From: Oceanicaulis alexandrii DSM 11625
Lineage (GTDB): Bacteria; Pseudomonadota; Alphaproteobacteria; Caulobacterales; Maricaulaceae
Length of the DNA stretch: 64,000 bases
Assembly: GCF_000420265.1 (NCBI RefSeq)
Contig: NZ_ATUP01000001.1
Span: 1,860,001 to 1,924,000, forward strand
Direction: 5' to 3'
The stretch's first letter is position 1. Each line of letters starts with the position of its first letter. The position numbers were made by a program, and so were the translations under genes. A model generated the notes under the pieces. It was not told the origin of the DNA, ran no database searches, and saw only the letters and a program-made list of their open reading frames with translations. This document shows positions 50,010 through 64,000 of the stretch, piece after piece.

Positions 50010-51083
50010 ATGTCTGAACGCTTTGATCTTGTCATTCTCGGCGCCGGGCTGTCCGGGCTGGCGCTAGGCAGCGCCGTAGCCCGGACCGGACGGCGTGTTC
50101 GCGCGCTGATCATTGAACCCAGACGACTCACATCAAACCCGCGCCACTGGATGTTCCCGGCTGCGCCTGATCATGGCCTGCGCCGGTTCGAGAGTAGCCG
50201 CTTGACTGGCTTTGAGGTGGAGAGCCCGACGGGCGCTGTTTTGCACAGGCCGCTGAAGCGAATGATTCTGGCGCGAGTCGCCGCGCATGCGGTGCAGGAG
50301 GCGGCGCTGGACGCAGTCGCCGCCGAACCGCGCATGATGCTGAGGGAGGGGGTCAGCGTTGATCGGGTGCAGGGCGGCCGAACTCAGGCGATCGTGGAGA
50401 CAAGCGACGGCCAGGTCTGCGCCAGCTGGGTGGTCGATACGCGGCCGCTTGAAGATGTTGGCATGCCCGCTGGCCGGGTGGTGCAACTGTCACACTTGAT
50501 GACCGCCCCTGTCGAAAGCGGCCATGAAGAGCGCTTGTGTCTGAAAGTCGTGGGGTCGGACTTTCCTGGTCTCGAGCAATTGAGCCTCAGCCGGGACCGC
50601 GTCGTGCATGAACAGGCGCGCTTTGTGCTGGCCCCGCCGCCAGATCTGGCGCTGGAGCCCCAGGCGGACCGGCTGTTGCAATGGGGCGGCCGCCTTGAGG
50701 CTGCTCGGCAATCTCAGGGCGTCTGGCCTTTGGGCTATCGTCCTTTGAGCCGCGGGGCCGGGCGCGTGGTGCTGGCGCCCGCCGACGCCTACGGCTTGCG
50801 GTTTGCGCCAGGCATGGCGGCGCTGCGCTTGCATGATTGGGCGCAAGCGCAGGCGCGTCGACTGACCTATGGGCTCAGCCTTTGCGCGCCGCCGCCGCCG
50901 CCTGTGTCCGCACGGTTGGCGACAGCACGTATCGAAGCGATGATCCGGCGCGATCCGCGCCTGGCGGCCGCGGGTTTGCGCGCCTTGCTTTATGAAGCGT
51001 CGGCCGATGCCGTCATGCGCACCTTGTCCGGCGCCGCCCGCTGGACCGATCTCATCCGCGCCTGGCGGTCGGGGACATGGTAG
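50010..51083 (+). CDS. Lycopene cyclase-like FAD-dependent protein
   Basis: The 357-residue flavoprotein begins FDLVILGAGLSGLALGSAVARTGRRVRALIIEPR, the dinucleotide fold of lycopene beta-cyclases (CrtY type). It has a RHWMF segment near residue 45, where that family has a His-Trp motif, and WVVDTRPL near 135. The tail RTLSGAARWTDLIRAWRSGTW resembles the lycopene cyclase C-terminus. No carotenoid genes (crtE, crtB, crtI) are in the window, so the substrate could be something else. It is divergent from the TetR gene, which probably regulates it. Confidence 0.6.
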   Translation: MSERFDLVILGAGLSGLALGSAVARTGRRVRALIIEPRRLTSNPRHWMFPAAPDHGLRRFESSRLTGFEVESPTGAVLHRPLKRMILARVAAHAVQEAALDAVAAEPRMMLREGVSVDRVQGGRTQAIVETSDGQVCASWVVDTRPLEDVGMPAGRVVQLSHLMTAPVESGHEERLCLKVVGSDFPGLEQLSLSRDRVVHEQARFVLAPPPDLALEPQADRLLQWGGRLEAARQSQGVWPLGYRPLSRGAGRVVLAPADAYGLRFAPGMAALRLHDWAQAQARRLTYGLSLCAPPPPPVSARLATARIEAMIRRDPRLAAAGLRALLYEASADAVMRTLSGAARWTDLIRAWRSGTW

Positions 51084-51135: not shown

Positions 51136-51912
51136 ATGAGTGATTCCGCGATCTCCGCCGATCTCGACGCACCGCCCGAGACCGGGCCGCGTCTGGTGCT
51201 GGTGACCACGCCTATCGGCAATCTGGGCGACATGACGCCGCGCGCCTGGGACGTCTTGCGCGACGCGGACGCCATTGCGTGCGAAGACACGCGCACGACG
51301 CGCCGATTGCTCGAACAGGGCGGCGTCACTGACAAGCGTTTGATCGCCTGTCATGACCATAACGAGACGGCGAGCGCAGCCGGCATCGTCAAGCTGATCG
51401 AAGACGGCGCGACGGTGGCTCTGGTCAGCGATGCGGGCACGCCAGCGATCTCTGATCCGGGTTTTCGTGTGGTTCAGGCGGCGCTCGAGGCGGGATTGAC
51501 CGTCAGCGCCGCGCCCGGCGTCTCCTCGGTGATCATGGCGCTCTCGATCTCCGGCCTGCCGACCGACCGCTTCACCTTTCTGGGCTTTCCGCCCCGTAAA
51601 TCAGGCAAGCGTCAGGCGCTGTTTGCGCTGTATGGGGAATTGCCGTCCAGTCTGATTGTTATGGAGAGCCCGCAGCGCCTGGCGGAATGCCTGGCGGACG
51701 CCCGCGCCGTACTGGGAGATCGCCGCGCCGCGCTGAGCCTGGAGCTGACCAAACGGTTCGAGCGGGTCTGGCGCGGCACGCTCTCAGAACTCGAAGCCCG
51801 GCTTGCCGACCCGCCCAAGGGCGAGGCCGTGATTGTGATCGAAGGCGCAGACGAGGTGCGCGAGAAAAAGAACAAATACGCCGCATTTTCCAAAGCCCCC
51901 AAGCGCGATTAA
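51136..51912 (+). CDS. rsmI: 16S rRNA 2'-O-ribose C1402 methyltransferase
   Basis: The 258-residue SAM-dependent enzyme methylates the 2'-OH of C1402 in 16S rRNA. The family motifs are VTTPIGNLGDMTPRAWDVL, CEDTRTTRRLL, ALVSDAGTPAISDPGFRVV and the SAM loop GVSSVIMALSISGLPTDRFTF. Length is typical. Near neighbours (TetR/cyclase-like, S9 peptidase) do not share this function. The intergenic stretch after it (145 nt) shows no strong terminator. Confidence 0.97.
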   Translation: MSDSAISADLDAPPETGPRLVLVTTPIGNLGDMTPRAWDVLRDADAIACEDTRTTRRLLEQGGVTDKRLIACHDHNETASAAGIVKLIEDGATVALVSDAGTPAISDPGFRVVQAALEAGLTVSAAPGVSSVIMALSISGLPTDRFTFLGFPPRKSGKRQALFALYGELPSSLIVMESPQRLAECLADARAVLGDRRAALSLELTKRFERVWRGTLSELEARLADPPKGEAVIVIEGADEVREKKNKYAAFSKAPKRD

Positions 51913-55051: not shown

Positions 55052-56263
55052 ATGCTGACGCGCGAGGCCTGCGAGGCGCTGGACCAGACTGATCCGCTGA
55101 AAGACAAACGCGACCTGTTCGCTCTGCCTGAGGGCGTGATCTATCTGGACGGCAACTCGCTGGGCGTGCCGCCCAAGGCGGCGCTCGCGCGTCTGCGTGA
55201 AGCCTCTGAATCCGAATGGGCGGTGGGCCTGATCCGGTCGTGGAACGACGCGGGCTGGATGGACCTGCCGCTGACGCTCGGGGGCAAACTCGCGGCGTTG
55301 ATGGGCGTCAAAGCCTCCGAAGTGATCGCGGTCGACACGGTCACCATCAACCTGTTCAAGCTCGCTACGGCGCTGCTGGACCGTGATGGCGGCGGCATTG
55401 CGGCCGAAGCGGGCGAGTTTCCCACCGACAATCATGTGATGGAGGGAATCTCCCGCATCACCGGCGCCCCGATGCACCGGGTCGCGCCCAACACCCGTCC
55501 GAAAGATTTGCCGGACGATGTAAAGGTCCTGATCAAATCGGCGGTGCATTACAAATCCGCCCAGATCGCTGATTTCGAGGGCTATGAGCGTGAAGCGGCG
55601 GCGCGCGGGCTCAACATCATCTGGGACCTCAGCCACGCCACCGGTCTCGTTGATCTCAAGCTCGCTCAATGGGGCGCGAAATACGCGGTGGGCTGCGGCT
55701 ATAAATTCCTCTCCGGCGGCCCCGGCGCGCCGGCCTTCCTGTACTGCGCGGAAGACCAGATCCAGACGCTGGAGCATCCGGTGTCGGGCTGGCTGGGTCA
55801 TAAACGCCCCTTCGGGTTTGAAGACGCCTACGAGCCTGACGACACCATTGTGCGCTGGCGCACCAGCTCGCCCTCCATCCTCGCTCTATCTGCGCTCGAT
55901 GGGGCGGTCAGCGCCTATGACGGTGTGGACATGGCGCAGGTGGAGGCCAAGGCGATCGCGCTGGGTGACATCATGCTCGCGCAAGCGGAGGCGCTGGGTC
56001 TCGATCATGCCTGTCCGGGGCCGGGCGAGCGGCGCGGCGGCCATGTGGTGCTGCGCCATGAGCAGGGCTACGCCATCGTTCAGGCCTTGATCGACCGCGG
56101 GATTATTGGCGATTTTCGCGCGCCTGACTTGATGCGGTTCGGGTTCAATCCGCTCTATAATTCCTACACGGAAGTCTTTGATGCGGCGCAGGCTCTGGCG
56201 GATGTGATCCAGACGGGCGCTTGGGACGACCCGAAATTCCTCGCCCAAAAAGCGGTGACCTGA
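55052..56263 (+). CDS. kynU: Kynureninase
   Basis: The 403-residue PLP enzyme cleaves kynurenine to anthranilate and alanine. The N-terminal IYLDGNSLG, the segment EFPTDNHVMEG, the Asp/His pair in IIWDLSHATG and the PLP Lys K218 in GYKFLSGGPGAPAF are characteristic. No tryptophan 2,3-dioxygenase or kynurenine formamidase is next to it. It is preceded by an SDR and followed by an SMP-30-type gene 63 nt later. Confidence 0.95.
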   Translation: MLTREACEALDQTDPLKDKRDLFALPEGVIYLDGNSLGVPPKAALARLREASESEWAVGLIRSWNDAGWMDLPLTLGGKLAALMGVKASEVIAVDTVTINLFKLATALLDRDGGGIAAEAGEFPTDNHVMEGISRITGAPMHRVAPNTRPKDLPDDVKVLIKSAVHYKSAQIADFEGYEREAAARGLNIIWDLSHATGLVDLKLAQWGAKYAVGCGYKFLSGGPGAPAFLYCAEDQIQTLEHPVSGWLGHKRPFGFEDAYEPDDTIVRWRTSSPSILALSALDGAVSAYDGVDMAQVEAKAIALGDIMLAQAEALGLDHACPGPGERRGGHVVLRHEQGYAIVQALIDRGIIGDFRAPDLMRFGFNPLYNSYTEVFDAAQALADVIQTGAWDDPKFLAQKAVT

Positions 56264-56326
56264 TCGCGCTTGCCCGTTTTGCGCTTCTCCCCCAGAGTAA
56301 AAGAAAAAACATCAGGGGAGGGCGCG

Positions 56327-57391
56327 ATGCTGCGCTGGATTCTGGGCGGCCTCGCCGCTCTTGTCGTGATCTTGGCCGTCGCCGCTTATGGGCCGGGCGC
56401 GCTGAAAGCCTACAAGTTTGATCCCACTGCGCCCGATCCCGCATTGATGGCGCTTTACGAGACGGTGGCTGAACCCGAGCGCCGGGAAGTGCCGAACCTG
56501 CACGGCGCGGAAGATCTGGAACCCGGACCTGATGGTCGGCTGTACGCCAGCCTGGCCGATGGCCGCATCATGGTGCGGGAGATCGAGGGCGGATGGTCAG
56601 AATACGCCAATACCAACGGACGTCCGCTGGGCCTGGCGTTCGCGCCGGACGGGGCGCTCTTTGTCGCCGATGCGCTTAAAGGTTTGCTGCGGCTTGAAGG
56701 CGACGGCGCGTTTGACGTCTGGCTCGCCGATGAGAGCGAAGGCGGGCCTCTGGTCTTCACTGACGATCTGACAGTTTTGAGCGATGGCGCGGTGATCCTG
56801 ACCGACGCTTCGCGCCGCTACGGCTATGGCGAATACATGACCTCTTTGCTCGAAGGCGAGCAGACGGGCGTCATCTACAAGGTCACGGCGCCGGACCAGT
56901 ATGACGTGCTGGCGGAAGGCTTTGGTTTCATCAATGGCGTGGATCATGACCCCAGCACGGGCCGCGTTTTCGTCAACGAGACCTGGGCGGGCCGGGTGAT
57001 CAGTCTTGATCCTGAAACCGGTGATTACGCCGTGCTGATTGACGGATTGCCGGGCTATCCTGACAATCTCGCCTTTGACGAGGAGACCGGGCTGATCTGG
57101 ATCGCCTTGCCCTCTCAACGTTCGCCCCAGATCGAGAGCTTGCATCCCAATCCGTTTGTGAAGCGTCTCGCCTGGCGCTGGATCCAGATTTCCGGATTGC
57201 CGCCCTTTCCGCCGCGCCCGGTGATGGGCATGGCTGTGACCGCCGAGGGTGAGCCGGTTCATGCGCTCTATGGTCCGGATGATGCGCCCTTCGGTGTCAC
57301 CACGGTGACCCCGTGGCGCGGCCAGATCTGGGTGGCGGGGCTAGAGCGTGACGGGGTGGACGCTTATGCCGTTCCCGATCGCATCCAATGA
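56327..57391 (+). CDS. SMP-30/strictosidine synthase-type membrane-anchored protein
   Basis: The 354-residue protein has an N-terminal signal anchor (MLRWILGGLAALVVILAVAAYG) and a six-bladed propeller with APMAP/strictosidine-synthase-like segments: GLAFAPDGALFVADALKGLLRL, DDLTVLSDGAVILTDASRRY and NGVDHDPSTGRVFVNETWAGRV. Such proteins are calcium-dependent lactonase-like hydrolases, though many are unassigned. I chose the internal ATG after GGGGAGGGCG because the anchor begins there. Its stop overlaps the next start (ATGA). Confidence 0.85.
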   Translation: MLRWILGGLAALVVILAVAAYGPGALKAYKFDPTAPDPALMALYETVAEPERREVPNLHGAEDLEPGPDGRLYASLADGRIMVREIEGGWSEYANTNGRPLGLAFAPDGALFVADALKGLLRLEGDGAFDVWLADESEGGPLVFTDDLTVLSDGAVILTDASRRYGYGEYMTSLLEGEQTGVIYKVTAPDQYDVLAEGFGFINGVDHDPSTGRVFVNETWAGRVISLDPETGDYAVLIDGLPGYPDNLAFDEETGLIWIALPSQRSPQIESLHPNPFVKRLAWRWIQISGLPPFPPRPVMGMAVTAEGEPVHALYGPDDAPFGVTTVTPWRGQIWVAGLERDGVDAYAVPDRIQ

Positions 57392-58181: not shown

Positions 58182-58601
58182 CTAGCGTGTATTGCTTTTC
58201 CGCTGGGCCAGGCGCGTTTTCGAGCCCTCATGAATGACGCGCAGTTCGTTGAGCGTTGTTTCGATCTCGGCCTTTTTCTCTTCCAGACGTTCGATCTCTT
58301 TCGCAGTCATCTCGATCACGAATTCGAGCTGCCGCACGCGCCCTTCACCTTCCTGGCCGTAGAGCTCGAGGAAGGTCTTGATGTCGCTCAGCTTGGTGCC
58401 GATGGTCTTGGCGCGCAGGATCAGGGCGAGGCGTTTCTTGTCGGCGTCGGTATAGACCCGCTGCCCGCCGACGCGCTGGGGTTTGAGCAAACCCTTGTCC
58501 TCATAGAACCGGATCGTGCGCGTGGTGATGCCAAACGCATCGGCCAGCTCGGCGATGCCGAACAGGGTGTCGTGGGTCTTCGTATCGGGCGCGTGAGTCA
58601 T
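58182..58601 (-). CDS. MerR family regulator (LiuR-like)
   Basis: The 139-residue regulator has the MerR HTH with the RFYEDKGLLKPQRVGGQRVYTDADKKRL segment near residue 30-60, and a C-terminal coiled coil (IERLEEKKAEIETTLNELR). No metal-binding Cys set is visible. In other proteobacteria LiuR-type MerR proteins control branched-chain acyl-CoA degradation. It is divergent from the acyl-CoA operon, with a palindrome between the two genes. Confidence 0.9.
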   Translation of the reverse strand: MTHAPDTKTHDTLFGIAELADAFGITTRTIRFYEDKGLLKPQRVGGQRVYTDADKKRLALILRAKTIGTKLSDIKTFLELYGQEGEGRVRQLEFVIEMTAKEIERLEEKKAEIETTLNELRVIHEGSKTRLAQRKSNTR

Positions 58602-58659
58602 GGTGCCTGTCCTTGTCCGTCTCCTTCATACGATGAAGTCTTGCCGCAAACAAGATGTG

Positions 58660-58677
58660 CTTGACGTATACGTTAAG
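58660..58677. promoter_or_regulatory. MerR-type operator candidate
   Basis: The 18-mer CTTGACGTATACGTTAAG is palindromic except for one pair (positions 4 and 15). It includes a TTGACG -35-like hexamer facing the operon. It lies 58 nt upstream of merR and 67 nt upstream of the SDR, where a LiuR-type site would be expected. The -10 is not clear. Confidence 0.6.
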
Positions 58678-58744
58678 CCCTGCGAAGCTCCCCTCAACAC
58701 CGGCGATGACAGACCGGACCAGTCAGGGAGGAGACGGGCGCACA

Positions 58745-59641
58745 ATGAGCGATAACGCCGCACACGCCCGCTATGACAGCGTATTTCGGCCTGACCTGTT
58801 TAAGGGGCAGGTGATCATCGTCACCGGTGGCGGATCGGGGATCGGGCGTTGCATCGCCCATGAGCTGACGGCGCTCGGCGCGCACGCCATTCTGGTGGGG
58901 CGCAAGCAAGACAAGCTCGACGCCGTCGCGCAAGAGATCGCTCATGACGGCGGCTCGTGCGAGACTGCCTCGTTTGATATTCGCGATGAAGAGGCCGTGG
59001 CGTCCGCGATCGCTGAAATGGCGGCGCGTCATGGCCGCATCCATGGCCTTGTGAACAATGCGGGCGGACAGTTTCCCGCCAACGCTGAAGACATCTCCAA
59101 AAAGGGTTGGGACGCGGTGATCGCCACCAATCTGACCGGCGGCTTTCTGATGAGCCGCGAAGTGTTCAAGGCCTCAATGGCTGAACAGGGCGGCGCCATC
59201 GTCAACATCACCGCTGACATGCATCACGGCATGCCGGGCATGGCGCATTCAGGCGCTGCGCGGGCGGGGATGGAAAATCTGACCAAGACCCTGGCGTTTG
59301 AGTGGGCGCCCAAGGGCGTACGAGTGAACGCCGTCGCGCCGGGCTGGATCGCCAGCTCGGGCATGGACACCTATGGCGGCGCCTTCCGCGCGATGATCCC
59401 GCTGCTCAAACAGAATTTGCCCGCGCAGCGCATGGGGTCGGAGGCCGAGGTGTCGGCGGCGGTGACCTATCTGTTGTCGCCGGGCGCGGCTTTCATCACC
59501 GGCGTCCAGCTTCAGGTGGATGGCGGCGCGCCTTTGGGCGAGCGACATTATCCGCTGACCGCTCATGACAAATCAGACGTCTTTAACGGCTTTCACCGGG
59601 CGGTGGATCCGGCGGTCTTGCGCGGTGAGGGAGCAGAGTAA
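58745..59641 (+). CDS. SDR oxidoreductase, PECR/AtuB-like
   Basis: The 298-residue SDR has TGGGSGIGRCIAHEL, NNAGGQFPANAEDISKKGWDAVI and a catalytic region IVNITADMHHGMPGMAHSGAARAG; the usual Tyr-x-x-x-Lys is replaced by a HSGAARAG segment, as in trans-2-enoyl-CoA reductase (PECR)-type proteins. An extra C-terminal part follows (GERHYPLTAHDKSDVFNGF). As first gene of the operon it matches AtuB in the Pseudomonas acyclic-terpenoid cluster. Start: ATG 58745 after an AGGAG site about 10 nt away. Confidence 0.88.
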   Translation: MSDNAAHARYDSVFRPDLFKGQVIIVTGGGSGIGRCIAHELTALGAHAILVGRKQDKLDAVAQEIAHDGGSCETASFDIRDEEAVASAIAEMAARHGRIHGLVNNAGGQFPANAEDISKKGWDAVIATNLTGGFLMSREVFKASMAEQGGAIVNITADMHHGMPGMAHSGAARAGMENLTKTLAFEWAPKGVRVNAVAPGWIASSGMDTYGGAFRAMIPLLKQNLPAQRMGSEAEVSAAVTYLLSPGAAFITGVQLQVDGGAPLGERHYPLTAHDKSDVFNGFHRAVDPAVLRGEGAE

Positions 59642-61251
59642 TGGCGGTCCTGCAAAGCCGGATCAATCCGGGCTCTGACGACTTCGCCGCAGCGCGCGCA
59701 AACATGGTTGAAAAGCTGGACGAGGCGCGTGGCGCGGAAGAGCAGGTGCGCTCCAACTCCGCCGCCAAGAAGTCGCGCTTTGACGAGCGCGGCCAGCTGT
59801 TGCCGCGTGAGCGCGTGGCGCGCTTGGTGGATCGCGATGCGTCCTTTCTCGAAATCGCGCCGCTCGCCGGACTCAAAATGCATGATGATGACGGCGGGCG
59901 CGGGGCTTCGGGCGGCGGCGCGGTGGTCGGCATCGGCGTCGTCTCGGGCAAACGATGCGTCATCGCTGCGTCCGACAGCGCGATCAAGGGCGGCACGGTC
60001 GCGCCCATGGGCTTGCGCAAATCCCTGCGCGCGCAGGAGATTGCGCTGCAAAACAAGCTGCCGATGATCCATCTGGTGGAATCGGGCGGCGCCAATCTTC
60101 TCTATCAGGCCGAGATCTTTGTGGATGGCGGACGCAGCTTCGCCAACCAGGCGCGTTTGAGCGCGGCGGGCATTCCCCAGGTCGCCGTTGTGCATGGCAG
60201 CTCCACCGCCGGCGGCGCCTATCTGCCGGGAATGAGCGATTATGTGGTTCTGGTGCGCGAGAAGTCGAAAATCTTCCTCGCCGGCCCGCCGCTGGTCAAA
60301 GCCGCGATCGGCGAGGACGCGGATGATGAATCCCTGGGCGGCGCGGACCTTCATGGCGAAGTGACGGGGCTCGGTGAATACGTCGCCGATGATGATGCGC
60401 AGGCGCTCGCCTATGCGCGCGACATCATGGACAAGCTCAACTGGAGCGAAGCCACACTGTCCGGGGGCGGCGAAGCGCCGCTTTATGACGCGGAAGAGCT
60501 CATGGGGATCGTGCCGGCGGATGACCGCACGCCCTATGATGTTCGTGATGTGATCGCGCGCGTGGTGGACGCCTCGGACTTTCTGGAATTCAAGGCGCGC
60601 TATGGGTCTGAAACCGTGTGCGGGCATGCCCGCATCGGCGGGCAGGCAGTCGGGATTATTGGCAATAACGGCCCGATCCAGCCTGAAGGCTCCACCAAGG
60701 CGGGCCAGTTCATCCAGCTGTGCGACCAGTCGCAAACCCCGATCCTGTTCTTGCAAAACACCACCGGTTACATGGTCGGTTCGGCGGCGGAACGCGCTGG
60801 CGCAGTCAAGCATGGCTCGAAAATGATCCAGGCCGTGGCCAACGCCCGCGTGCCCAAGATCACCATCGTGCTCGGCGGCAGCTTCGGCGCCGGCAATTAC
60901 GGCATGTGCGGGCGCGGCTTTGACCCGCGCTTCATCTTCGCCTGGCCCACCGCTCGCACGGCGGTGATGGGCGGCGCGCAGGCCGCGAAGGTGATGGAGA
61001 TCGTCACCCGCGGCAAGAATGCGCGCGCGGGCGTGGAGACCGATGAAGAGGCGCTCGCCCAGATGAGCGCCATGATCACCCAGAGCCTTGATGAGCAGAG
61101 CCAGGCGCTCTTCGCCACCGCCCGGCTCTGGGATGACGGGATCATTGATCCGCGCGACACCCGCGCGGTGCTGATCGAATGCCTGAACATTTGTGCTGAG
61201 GCGGATCGCCGTCAGCTGAACCCCAACACGTTCGGAGTCGCGCGGTTCTAA
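59641..61251 (+). CDS. Acyl-CoA carboxylase beta subunit (MCC/GCC-like)
   Basis: The 536-residue carboxyltransferase has the two crotonase-like halves: FLEIAPLAGLKM, IVHGSSTAGGAYLPGMSDYV near 190-215, and IPILFLQNTTGYMVG-like PILFLQNTTGYMVGS near 375 with GSFGAGNYGMCGRGF. The region just before the first TAGGAY reads FVDGGRSFANQARLSAAGIPQVAVVHGSS, unlike the HFGRIFYNQ of methylcrotonyl-CoA carboxylase, so geranyl-CoA or another beta-branched acyl-CoA carboxylase is possible. Its ATG shares one base with the previous stop (TAATG). Confidence 0.9.
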   Translation: MAVLQSRINPGSDDFAAARANMVEKLDEARGAEEQVRSNSAAKKSRFDERGQLLPRERVARLVDRDASFLEIAPLAGLKMHDDDGGRGASGGGAVVGIGVVSGKRCVIAASDSAIKGGTVAPMGLRKSLRAQEIALQNKLPMIHLVESGGANLLYQAEIFVDGGRSFANQARLSAAGIPQVAVVHGSSTAGGAYLPGMSDYVVLVREKSKIFLAGPPLVKAAIGEDADDESLGGADLHGEVTGLGEYVADDDAQALAYARDIMDKLNWSEATLSGGGEAPLYDAEELMGIVPADDRTPYDVRDVIARVVDASDFLEFKARYGSETVCGHARIGGQAVGIIGNNGPIQPEGSTKAGQFIQLCDQSQTPILFLQNTTGYMVGSAAERAGAVKHGSKMIQAVANARVPKITIVLGGSFGAGNYGMCGRGFDPRFIFAWPTARTAVMGGAQAAKVMEIVTRGKNARAGVETDEEALAQMSAMITQSLDEQSQALFATARLWDDGIIDPRDTRAVLIECLNICAEADRRQLNPNTFGVARF

Positions 61252-61283
61252 CAAGACGCGGCCCACCAACGGGAGGACACGCC

Positions 61284-62453
61284 ATGCAGTTCAACGAGCA
61301 ACACGAACAGCTTCGCGACACCGTCGCCAAGTTCGTCGCCAACGAGATCAATCCGTATGTGGATGAATGGGAGGCGGCCGACCAGTTCCCTTCTCATGAG
61401 GTCTTCAAGAAGATGGGCGATCTGGGCCTTCTGGGCCTGCGCTATCCCGAGGAGTTTGGCGGCGCCGGTCTCGACATGACCTATTCGCTCGTCCTGGCCG
61501 AAGAGCTGGGGATGATTGATTGCGGCGGCGTGCCCATGGCCATCGGCGTGCAGACCGATATGTGCACCCCGGCGCTGGCGCGGTTCGGCTCTGACGATCT
61601 GCGCAAGCAATTCCTGGCGCCGGCGATTGCAGGCGACATGGTGGGGTGCCTCGGCGTGTCCGAGCCGGGCGGCGGCTCGGATGTGGCGGCGGTGAAGACC
61701 AATGCGAAGTCAGACGGCGATGATTACATCATCAACGGCACCAAGATGTGGATCACCAATGGCCTGAAGGCGGATTGGTGCTGCCTGCTGGCCAACACGT
61801 CCGACGGCAAGCCCCATGAGAGCAAGTCGCTGATCATGGTGCCGATGGATCTGCCGGGCATTGAAAAGCAGAAGATCCACAAGATCGGGATGCACAGCTC
61901 TGACACCGCGCAATTGTTCTTTGATGATGTGCGGGTGCCCAAGCGCTATCGCATCGGTGATGAAGGCGCAGGCTTCATCTATCAGATGCTGCAGTTCCAG
62001 GAAGAGCGCATCTATGGCGCGGCGTCGTCTTTGAAAAACCTCGACAAGCAGATCGACCTGACCATCGAGTACACCCGTGACCGGCACGCCTTCGGCCAGC
62101 CGCTGCTCGACAATCAGGCGATCCATTTCCGCCTCGCCGAGTTGCGTACTGAAGTCGAGATGCTCCGTTCACTGACCTATCGTTGCGTGGATGATTTCAA
62201 CCAGGGCAAGGACATCACCAAGCTCGCCTCCATGGCCAAGCTCAAATGCGGTCGGCTGGCGCGTGAAGTGTCTGACAGCTGCCTGCAGTTCTGGGGTGGC
62301 ATGGGCTACACGGCCGACAACCTCGTCAGCCGCTCCTTCCGCGATGGCCGCCTGATCTCCATTGGCGGTGGCGCCGACGAGATCATGCTCGGCATCATCG
62401 CCAAGCTTGAAGGCACGCTGCCCAAGCGCCGCAAGCCTGAAGGCAATAAATAG
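61284..62453 (+). CDS. Acyl-CoA dehydrogenase, citronellyl-CoA dehydrogenase (AtuD)-like
   Basis: The 389-residue flavoenzyme introduces a 2,3 double bond in an acyl-CoA. It has the ACAD segments GCLGVSEPGGGSDVA, the substrate-binding MWITNGLKADWCCLLANTS, and YQMLQFQEERIYGAAS with the likely base Glu. The HSSDTAQLFFDDVRVP and VPMAIGVQTDMCTPALARFGS segments resemble what I recall of AtuD. Isovaleryl-CoA dehydrogenase is the main alternative. It starts 32 nt after the carboxylase with GGGAGG upstream. Confidence 0.88.
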   Translation: MQFNEQHEQLRDTVAKFVANEINPYVDEWEAADQFPSHEVFKKMGDLGLLGLRYPEEFGGAGLDMTYSLVLAEELGMIDCGGVPMAIGVQTDMCTPALARFGSDDLRKQFLAPAIAGDMVGCLGVSEPGGGSDVAAVKTNAKSDGDDYIINGTKMWITNGLKADWCCLLANTSDGKPHESKSLIMVPMDLPGIEKQKIHKIGMHSSDTAQLFFDDVRVPKRYRIGDEGAGFIYQMLQFQEERIYGAASSLKNLDKQIDLTIEYTRDRHAFGQPLLDNQAIHFRLAELRTEVEMLRSLTYRCVDDFNQGKDITKLASMAKLKCGRLAREVSDSCLQFWGGMGYTADNLVSRSFRDGRLISIGGGADEIMLGIIAKLEGTLPKRRKPEGNK

Positions 62454-62455
62454 CC

Positions 62456-63256
62456 ATGTCCGCGCCGCGTACTCTATTGGTCGAACGCCACGCCCGGGTT
62501 CTGCATGTGACGCTGAACCGGCCCGCCCTGCGCAACGCCATGTCGCTTGAAATGGTGGATGAGCTCATCAACGCGCTCGCCGACGCTGAACAGCACGGTG
62601 ATCGCGCCATCGTCCTGCGCGGCGCCGAGGGGCATTTCTGTTCGGGCGGCGACATCAAGGATATGGGCGCGGCGCAAGGCCAGCCTGTCTCGGACGGCGT
62701 CGACCCCATCGCGAACGTCAACGCTCGCTTTGGTGAGTTGTGCGTGGCCTTCGCCAGCACCGGCTTGCCTGTGGTGGCGGTTGTTGAGGGTGCGGTCATG
62801 GGCGGCGGTTTCGGTCTCGCCTGTGTGGCGGATGTGGTGCTGGCGTCCGAGACGGCTCTGTTCCGTTTGCCTGAAACCGGGCTCGGGATCGTGCCGGCCC
62901 AGATCGCGCCTTTCCTGGTGGAGCGCCTTGGCTATTCAGAAGCGCGGCGCCTGGCGGTGACCGGCGGCAAGCTGGATGCCGCGAAGGCTCTGGATGTTGG
63001 CCTTGTGCACGCCGTGCATCCCACAGCCGATCTGGATGCGGCGTTGGAGGCCGAGCTTGCACAGATCCGCAAGGGCGCGCCGAACGCCATCGCAGCGACC
63101 AAGGCGTTGATGCGTCGGGCGCGTCTGGAAGCGCCCGCCAGCCTGGTTCAGGACGCGGCTGCGGCGTTCGCCAAGGCGGCGCGGTCTGATGAAGGCGCAG
63201 AAGGCATGACCGCTTTTCTTGAAAAACGTCCCGCCCGCTGGGCTCAAGAGGGATAA
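62456..63256 (+). CDS. Enoyl-CoA hydratase/isomerase family protein (AtuE/LiuC-like)
   Basis: The 266-residue crotonase has the oxyanion holes HFCSGGDIKDMG and EGAVMGGGFGLACVADV, with the glutamates of hydratases at LPETGLGIVPAQIAPFLV. The PAQIAPF segment recalls isohexenylglutaconyl-CoA hydratase (AtuE) more than 3-methylglutaconyl-CoA hydratase. It starts 2 nt after the dehydrogenase stop, so it is translationally coupled. Confidence 0.9.
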   Translation: MSAPRTLLVERHARVLHVTLNRPALRNAMSLEMVDELINALADAEQHGDRAIVLRGAEGHFCSGGDIKDMGAAQGQPVSDGVDPIANVNARFGELCVAFASTGLPVVAVVEGAVMGGGFGLACVADVVLASETALFRLPETGLGIVPAQIAPFLVERLGYSEARRLAVTGGKLDAAKALDVGLVHAVHPTADLDAALEAELAQIRKGAPNAIAATKALMRRARLEAPASLVQDAAAAFAKAARSDEGAEGMTAFLEKRPARWAQEG

Positions 63257-63259
63257 ATC

Positions 63260-64000
63260 ATGGCTGAAACGGCCTTCAAAAGCGTGCTGGTCGCCAATCG
63301 TGGCGAGATCGCTGTCCGTGTGCTGAACGAAGCGCGCGATAGCGGCCGTACGGCCATCGCCGTCTATTCCGAAGCGGATACCGACGCCTTGCATGTGCGC
63401 GAAGCGGACGTGGCGGTCTGCATCGGCCCGGCGCTCGCCAGCGAAAGCTATCTCAATATCGAAGCCGTGCTGGACGCGGCCCGAAAAACCGGCGCCGAGG
63501 CGATCCATCCCGGCTATGGCTTCCTGTCAGAAAACGCCGCTTTCGCCCGTGCGGTGATCAAGGCGGGACTGGTCTGGATCGGCCCGCCGCCCGAAGCCAT
63601 TGACGCCATGGGCGACAAGGCGCGCGCCAAGGAGTTGATGATCAAGGCAGGCGTGCCGACCTTGCCGGGCTGGCAGGGCGCAGATCAATCAGACGCCACC
63701 CTCAAGAGCGAGGCCGACAAGGTGGGCTATCCGCTCTTGATCAAGGCTGTGGCGGGCGGCGGCGGTCGCGGCATGCGCATTGTGCGCAGCGCGGCGGAAT
63801 TTGACGAGGCGCTGATCTCGGCCCGTCGTGAAGCGAAATCTGCTTTTGGCGATGACGCAGTTTTGATCGAGAAATTCGTCGAGCGGGGCCGTCATGTGGA
63901 GATTCAGGTCTTCGCTGATCGTGACGGAAACACTATCCATCTCGGTGAACGCGATTGCTCGGCTCAGCGTCGCCGCCAGAAAGTGATCGAGGAAGCGCCG
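63260..64000 (+). CDS. Acyl-CoA carboxylase alpha (biotin carboxylase) subunit, 3' truncated
   Basis: The first 247 residues are visible. The start [25 protein letters not shown] opens the biotin carboxylase domain, followed by [16 protein letters not shown] and the ATP-grasp segment [14 protein letters not shown] near residue 170. It starts 3 nt after the hydratase stop, with GAGGG upstream. The biotin carrier and C-terminus are beyond the window. It should pair with the beta subunit at 59641 (AtuF or LiuD role). Confidence 0.93.

Follow-up and report, generated by a model that had tools for sequence, protein, structure and literature searches.

The stretch of DNA analysed here, 64,000 nucleotides of Oceanicaulis alexandrii DSM 11625 (hereafter the window; G000:C1:1860001-1924000, in a 3.02-Mb genome of four contigs), ends within an operon that probably serves the degradation of 3-methyl-branched, isoprenoid acyl-CoAs. 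Its predicted pathway resembles that of the Pseudomonas atu system up to the cleavage step, which would then proceed by a split of the 3-hydroxy-3-methylglutaryl-CoA (HMG-CoA) lyase type combined with the action of an enzyme of the BKACE family (PF05853). The operon encodes a carboxylase of the geranyl-CoA carboxylase (GCC) type followed directly by BKACE, and in our collection of loci BKACE and the atu protein AtuA never occur together. A preliminary description of the window missed the BKACE gene, the most distinctive feature of the cluster, because it starts 1.2 kb past the window end.

An atu-like operon extending past the window

The preliminary description had recognized a divergent MerR-family regulator gene and, in the order of atuBCDEF, genes for a short-chain dehydrogenase/reductase (SDR), a carboxylase beta subunit, an acyl-CoA dehydrogenase (ACAD), an enoyl-CoA hydratase (ECH) and a carboxylase alpha subunit. 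This reading was borne out, as the open reading frames (ORFs) are intact and their order is that of four Pseudomonas loci (L152, L155, L158 and L144), which harbour AtuA-SDR-beta-ACAD-ECH-alpha and are equal to the window from the SDR on. The features are listed below, in window coordinates or, past the window end, in those of locus L003.

58182-58601, reverse strand: MerR-family regulator of 139 residues, intact ORF (PF13411, E 2.9e-17), divergent from the operon
58661-58676, no strand: palindrome TTGACGTATACGTTAA, putative operator, in the MerR-SDR gap
58745-59641, forward strand: SDR oxidoreductase, AtuB-like by its place, intact ORF (PF13561, E 4e-55)
59641-61251, forward strand: carboxylase beta subunit, assigned to the GCC type and AtuC-like by PDB match, pocket and tree, intact ORF
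61284-62453, forward strand: ACAD, AtuD-like, of the citronellyl-CoA dehydrogenase type by sequence identities, intact ORF
62456-63256, forward strand: ECH, AtuE-like, intact ORF (PF00378)
63260-64000 and on to L003:12233, forward strand: carboxylase alpha subunit (biotin), AtuF-like, ORF cut by the window end
L003:12238-13116, same direction as the operon: BKACE (PF05853), directly after the alpha subunit
L003:13140-14969, same direction as the operon: AMP-dependent acyl-CoA ligase
L003:14953-16437, same direction as the operon: FAD monooxygenase, Baeyer-Villiger-like
L003:16434-17450, opposed to the operon: alpha/beta hydrolase-like ORF, named by eye

Pfam matches back every named gene of the cluster. 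The complete alpha subunit, read past the window end, comprises 657 residues (L003:10260-12233), and the alpha, BKACE, ligase and monooxygenase genes follow one another in one direction, nearly without gaps. A longer SDR with an alternative start at 58655 is possible.

The gene order is not accidental, since the divergent MerR gene and the order found in the window recur in 12 of 13 loci of the same family; the 13th locus, L075, has no ECH match. The genes for MerR, SDR, beta, ACAD, alpha, BKACE and ligase are present in this order in all 13. The enzymes themselves resemble those of the four atuA-bearing Pseudomonas loci, with identities of 63-64% for the SDR, 58-60% for the beta subunit, 66-68% for the ACAD, 47-53% for the ECH and 56-58% for the alpha subunit. 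The ACAD is 64-69% identical to those of the AtuA-type loci L152, L158, L149 and L160. For the ECH, the second PDB match is 4zu2, a putative isohexenylglutaconyl-CoA hydratase (230 bits), and the NCBIfam model for gamma-carboxygeranoyl-CoA hydratase gives 155 bits, under its cut-off of 426.

Carboxylase type and the leucine pathway

Structural matches, a diagnostic pocket and phylogeny all assign the beta subunit to the GCC type. Its best PDB match is the GCC beta subunit 5ikl, with 716 bits versus 539 bits for 3u9r, the beta subunit of a methylcrotonyl-CoA carboxylase (MCC). The substrate pocket is reported to harbour a Phe residue after a three-residue insertion in MCC beta subunits and an insertion-free Gly in those of GCC (Jurado et al. 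2015, PMC4673880). At this place the sequence of the window protein is EIFVDG---GRSFANQ, with the Gly and no insertion, close to EIFVEG---ARGFANQ of 5ikl; the corresponding stretch of 3u9r is EVFPDREHFGRIFFNQ, and that of the genome's own second carboxylase beta subunit, encoded on contig 2, is EVFPDKEHFGRIFFNQ, with the MCC Phe and insertion. As scored by alignment, all 102 GCC-side sequences have the Gly-type pocket and both MCC sequences the Phe type. The phylogenetic check proposed in the preliminary description gave the same answer: in a maximum-likelihood tree of 105 rows, some of them long, built with a quick method, the window protein groups with 5ikl among 102 GCC rows, apart from 3u9r, with a support of 99 (Shimodaira-Hasegawa-like approximate likelihood-ratio test, SH-aLRT).

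An ordinary leucine/isovalerate (liu) operon, with an MCC and an isovaleryl-CoA dehydrogenase (IVD), would account for a MerR-type regulator, as LiuR is listed as a MerR-family protein in a table of PMC5343134. We nevertheless consider this explanation highly improbable and rejected it on the basis of the pocket residue, the tree and a separate leucine-type gene set on contig 2, which comprises an IVD, the MCC-type beta subunit and a hydratase. The window ACAD is 32% identical to that IVD, and against a solved IVD structure it scores 208 bits versus 645 bits for the contig-2 enzyme. No HMG-CoA lyase gene was found in the cluster, where the gene directly downstream is that of BKACE; the genome's only HMG-CoA lyase is encoded on contig 1, outside the cluster and 82 kb from the window end. 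The grouping with MCC and IVD and the directly downstream HMG-CoA lyase that the preliminary description had named as evidence against its reading were thus not found.

BKACE and AtuA are complementary across loci and genomes

Extension past the window, also suggested in the preliminary description with a view to atuA or an HMG-CoA lyase gene, revealed neither of them and yielded BKACE instead. The genome encodes a single BKACE, which matches PF05853 over profile positions 1-274 of 274 (E 7.6e-82). Of the 299 genomes of the order, 40 encode an orthologue; every one of these matches has E<=4e-124, and none falls between that value and the 1e-40 cut. We read 20 loci hand-chosen from these 40 genomes, hence selected by the presence of BKACE, and the GCC-type beta gene adjoins the BKACE gene in all 20.

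We also collected 80 loci by the carboxylase alone, the best 80 of a longer list, which together with the former 20 make up a set of 100; one locus (L073, identical to L110) is counted twice in the 100-locus figures, as well as in the 46-locus and 63-row figures given below. Loci were considered wide-flanked if the upstream flank measured at least 6 kb and the downstream flank at least 8 kb. There are 48 of them, all from the carboxylase-chosen 80, and the 52 loci with shorter flanks were excluded from this count. Among the 48, 30 harbour BKACE, 11 AtuA and 7 neither; none has both. In the full set of 100, AtuA occurs in 13 loci, never together with BKACE.

This complementarity extends to whole genomes, as judged from 46 hand-picked ones in which we searched for AtuA and HMG-CoA lyase. 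AtuA is present in 16 of 16 genomes with AtuA-type or 'neither' loci versus 2 of 30 BKACE-type genomes (Fisher p 1.5e-10, uncorrected for kinship), and the seven 'neither' genomes thus keep AtuA elsewhere. Conversely, the 17 genomes with AtuA-type or 'neither' loci, among them that of L143, gave no close BKACE orthologue, the best match having 36% identity. The genome of O. alexandrii, cluster included, has no AtuA (PF07287) match; that the same search detected the family in 18 of the 46 genomes indicates that it was valid. On the beta tree, the AtuA and BKACE labels require 3 changes, versus 12.2 for shuffled labels.

In comparisons that, for the wider set of loci, covered matches above 50 bits, the linkage between GCC and BKACE was found in Maricaulaceae (the family of O. 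alexandrii and of Marinicauda salina), in a second family of the order, in Rhizobiales, Burkholderiales, Nannocystis and Tahibacter, such that among the loci read the BKACE cluster type is represented in Alphaproteobacteria, Betaproteobacteria, Gammaproteobacteria and Myxococcota. In the second family (f5, L076-L082), beta, alpha and BKACE are present in all seven loci, ACAD in six and ECH in four; matches to MerR and SDR were found in none of the seven. In Tahibacter (L153 and L162) the BKACE gene lies upstream, in the order BKACE-ACAD-beta-alpha, and the beta subunit groups beside those of AtuA-type Nevskiaceae. At least one independent exchange between AtuA and BKACE is therefore likely.

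Sequence features of the cluster-associated BKACEs

The cluster BKACEs share several motifs with the family, namely GxED (63 of 63), HxH (59 of 63 by a strict regular expression) and IGR (in the 14 aligned sequences), whose residues we take to be catalytic. They differ from Kce at another position: the GAE motif of the latter reads G-x-L in 62 of 63 proteins, with Leu for Glu (one sequence was unread), and all 63 harbour a WxWPP-like stretch absent from Kce. The identity and motif comparisons left out the BKACE of L133, for which no ORF was recovered, and a fragment of the dehydrogenase at C1:1400556, which had been translated out of frame. The O. alexandrii protein scores only 111 bits against Kce. 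Both the Glu-to-Leu replacement and the WxWPP stretch are compatible with a substrate carrying a hydrophobic side chain.

The general BKACE reaction converts a beta-keto acid and acetyl-CoA into an acyl-CoA and acetoacetate, and the family takes various beta-keto acids, as described in PMC11961710. BKACE might thus be a mere passenger, with some unrelated beta-keto acid as its substrate and a link to the carboxylase that reflects operon convenience alone. We regard this as improbable, given that the linkage extends from Maricaulaceae to Nannocystis and Tahibacter and persists in the latter with a changed gene order, that BKACE complements AtuA and that the Kce Glu residue has been replaced by Leu.

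A putative pathway with two-step cleavage

From gene content and sequence kinship, we propose that the acyl-CoA ligase and the SDR would prepare the acid, the dehydrogenase would form a 2,3-enoyl-CoA (as in the citronellyl- to geranyl-CoA conversion), the GCC-type carboxylase would carboxylate the 3-methyl group and the hydratase would yield a 3-hydroxy-3-alkenylglutaryl-CoA. The next step, release of acetyl-CoA and a free beta-keto acid, would fall to an enzyme of the HMG-CoA lyase type, probably the only one encoded on the chromosome; HMG-CoA lyase acting on 3-hydroxy-3-R-glutaryl-CoA generates acetyl-CoA and the free acid R-CO-CH2-COO-. In the last step, most plausibly in this order, BKACE would replace AtuA and convert the beta-keto acid and acetyl-CoA into a shortened acyl-CoA and acetoacetate. 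The lyase and BKACE together would recycle acetyl-CoA and deliver the shortened acyl-CoA, as AtuA and a thiolase would. Beta-oxidation of that product would lead to 3-methylcrotonyl-CoA, to be taken over by the separate leucine (liu) enzymes.

AtuA is drawn as the lyase of the pathway in PMC4847356, and the review PMC4097962 names LiuE for this step and has among its references a title according to which LiuE, an HMG-CoA lyase, also has 3-hydroxy-3-isohexenylglutaryl-CoA (HIHG-CoA) lyase activity. We tentatively suggest that AtuA and BKACE may be non-homologous enzymes of the same step: a LiuE-type lyase would give acetyl-CoA and the free beta-keto acid instead of the acetate and acyl-CoA of the published scheme, and AtuA or BKACE would re-activate or cleave that acid.

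Several observations weigh against the two-step cleavage. The lyase products given in PMC4847356 and PMC4097962 are acetate and an acyl-CoA. HMG-CoA lyase is not confined to the BKACE-type genomes, where 29 of 30 have it, but occurs in 15 of 16 of the others as well; its presence is weak evidence, because the enzyme is expected for leucine degradation and because a search of the 100 loci with the O. alexandrii HMG-CoA lyase gave no match exceeding 100 bits. Two BKACE-type genomes, those of L085 and L120, do harbour AtuA, although the open frame in L120 has just 448 residues, and a search of the L085 genome (G315, metagenome-assembled) for HMG-CoA lyase gave nothing at E<=1e-50. In addition, our counts come from related sequences and are not independent of kinship, and the label changes on the tree are few.

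A shorter route, in which BKACE itself cleaves 3-hydroxy-3-alkenylglutaryl-CoA and directly replaces the lyase with no involvement of HMG-CoA lyase, would be in line with its complementarity to an AtuA drawn as the lyase and with the lack of an HMG-CoA lyase match for L085, a genome that is metagenome-assembled and contains AtuA. We judge it unlikely, as the known reaction requires a beta-keto acid and acetyl-CoA (PMC11961710), whereas the hydroxyglutaryl-CoA lacks a keto group, and all but one of the BKACE-type genomes have an HMG-CoA lyase.

The nature of the isoprenoid is a separate matter. The same pathway might well serve a substrate other than a monoterpene. Candidates are isoprenoids of greater chain length, namely farnesyl, phytyl or squalene-derived acids, and isoprenoid methyl ketones that the FAD monooxygenase and the hydrolase would open; we hold this to be a real possibility, if the lesser one. 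It would fit the cluster neighbours in the 13 same-family loci, all of which have the ligase and the alpha/beta hydrolase and 12 of which have the FAD monooxygenase (L075 is again the only locus with no match), as well as the best NCBIfam model of the ligase, FadD11, although the score of 407 bits is under the cut-off of 950. Beyond that family, in the other 86 loci (L076-L162 minus L110), the ligase has matches of at least 40% in 6, one of them spanning just 88 residues, and neither the monooxygenase nor the hydrolase has any such match. The ligase, monooxygenase and hydrolase thus lie outside the core of the cluster, which argues against this alternative. As a side observation, the FAD monooxygenase and the alpha/beta hydrolase next to the operon could perhaps open isoprenoid methyl ketones.

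The MerR regulator and its putative operator

The MerR gene is a conserved divergent neighbour in all 13 same-family loci read, and it goes with the BKACE cluster type, since 18 of the 30 wide-flanked loci with BKACE have it, versus none of the other 18. The preliminary description had considered this regulator unusual. It does differ from the TetR protein of Pseudomonas; within its own cluster type, in contrast, it is common. NCBIfam names of metal-responsive MerR proteins (ZntR, CueR and others) were rejected, their scores being far under the cut-offs.

We propose that MerR would control the operon at the TTGACGTWWACGTNA palindrome. In 14 aligned regions of the same family, the palindrome is a conserved block of the MerR-SDR gap. 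Of the 14 family genomes, 13 have the exact TTGACGTWWACGTNA at the cluster, and G183 has a one-base variant. Four sites within 2 mismatches of TTKACGTWWACGTMAA are present in the O. alexandrii genome, versus one for the reversed control pattern. The gap between MerR and the operon contains the looser pattern TTKACGYNNRCGTHA in 40 of the 46 MerR-bearing loci, which comprise 13 same-family loci (BKACE-chosen) and 33 from the carboxylase-chosen 80; the exceptions are L083, L087, L095, L098, L112 and L122. This pattern was found in none of 200 gap shuffles, and at 5 more sites in the other 774 kb of the loci.

Elsewhere in the O. alexandrii genome, the palindrome also precedes an ACAD gene (G000:C1:1400448, L030:6448), and in six relatives (L164, L167, L168, L176, L178 and L179) it precedes a different ACAD gene, adjoined in several of them by a ctaA-like ORF. 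These sites may belong to further members of the regulon or be targets of another MerR protein. The genome encodes a second, 38% identical MerR beside fad-type genes (L031:11596-12252), and the 5' end of this MerR gene carries a TTGACGTGAACGTCAA site (L031:12107). On account of this site, MerR control may link the breakdown of straight-chain and branched-chain acyl-CoAs.

In L082, the one f5 locus in which the regulator was scanned, a divergent TetR gene (L082:11505-12128) occupies the place that MerR has in the same-family loci. With this gene and no MerR match in the f5 loci, the regulator, like the lyase, seems to have been exchanged.

Other genes of the window

Farther upstream in the window, four more ORFs can be given tentative names by the look of their sequences. 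Those at 50010-51083 and 51136-51912 presumably encode a protein of the lycopene cyclase type and an RsmI-type methyltransferase, respectively; after them come a presumed kynureninase gene (55052-56263) and, next to it, an ORF resembling gluconolactonase/strictosidine synthase (56270-57391).

Relation to known systems and significance

The operon shares with the Pseudomonas atu cluster (atuRABCDEFGH) the SDR-beta-ACAD-ECH-alpha order and similar subunits. Unlike the latter, which has AtuA and is regulated by the TetR repressor AtuR, it has a divergent MerR gene and BKACE downstream, in a genome devoid of AtuA. Enzyme classes are also shared with the liu cluster, whose LiuR likewise belongs to the MerR family; the liu carboxylase is an MCC, in contrast with the GCC-type pocket and tree position found here in a cluster with no HMG-CoA lyase gene. 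With Kce of lysine fermentation (2y7d, PF05853), the cluster BKACE shares a whole-length family match and the GxED, HxH and IGR motifs, but it differs by the Leu that takes the place of the GAE Glu, by the WxWPP stretch and by its linkage to a GCC-type carboxylase.

The GCC clusters that we met in the literature are those of Pseudomonas and Thauera, and atuC, MerR and acyclic terpene do co-occur in published texts. In the same literature, which covers subscription journals to a small extent, we found no link of the DUF849/Kce name with geranyl-CoA or acyclic terpene, nor of the Kce name with methylcrotonyl-CoA carboxylase. The carboxylase module is known. By the literature searched, neither the branch through BKACE nor its complementary occurrence with AtuA has been described.

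With a second type of GCC cluster, in which BKACE stands for AtuA, the cleavage that follows carboxylation may call for a revision that can be tested, and a BKACE subgroup gains a suggested function. An annotation rule may be offered, according to which a GCC-type beta subunit together with BKACE would indicate isoprenoid rather than leucine degradation. If AtuA and BKACE do perform the same step, AtuA would be assigned a function, the accepted lyase step would be corrected and a second, widespread branch of isoprenoid degradation, that of BKACE, would be recognized.

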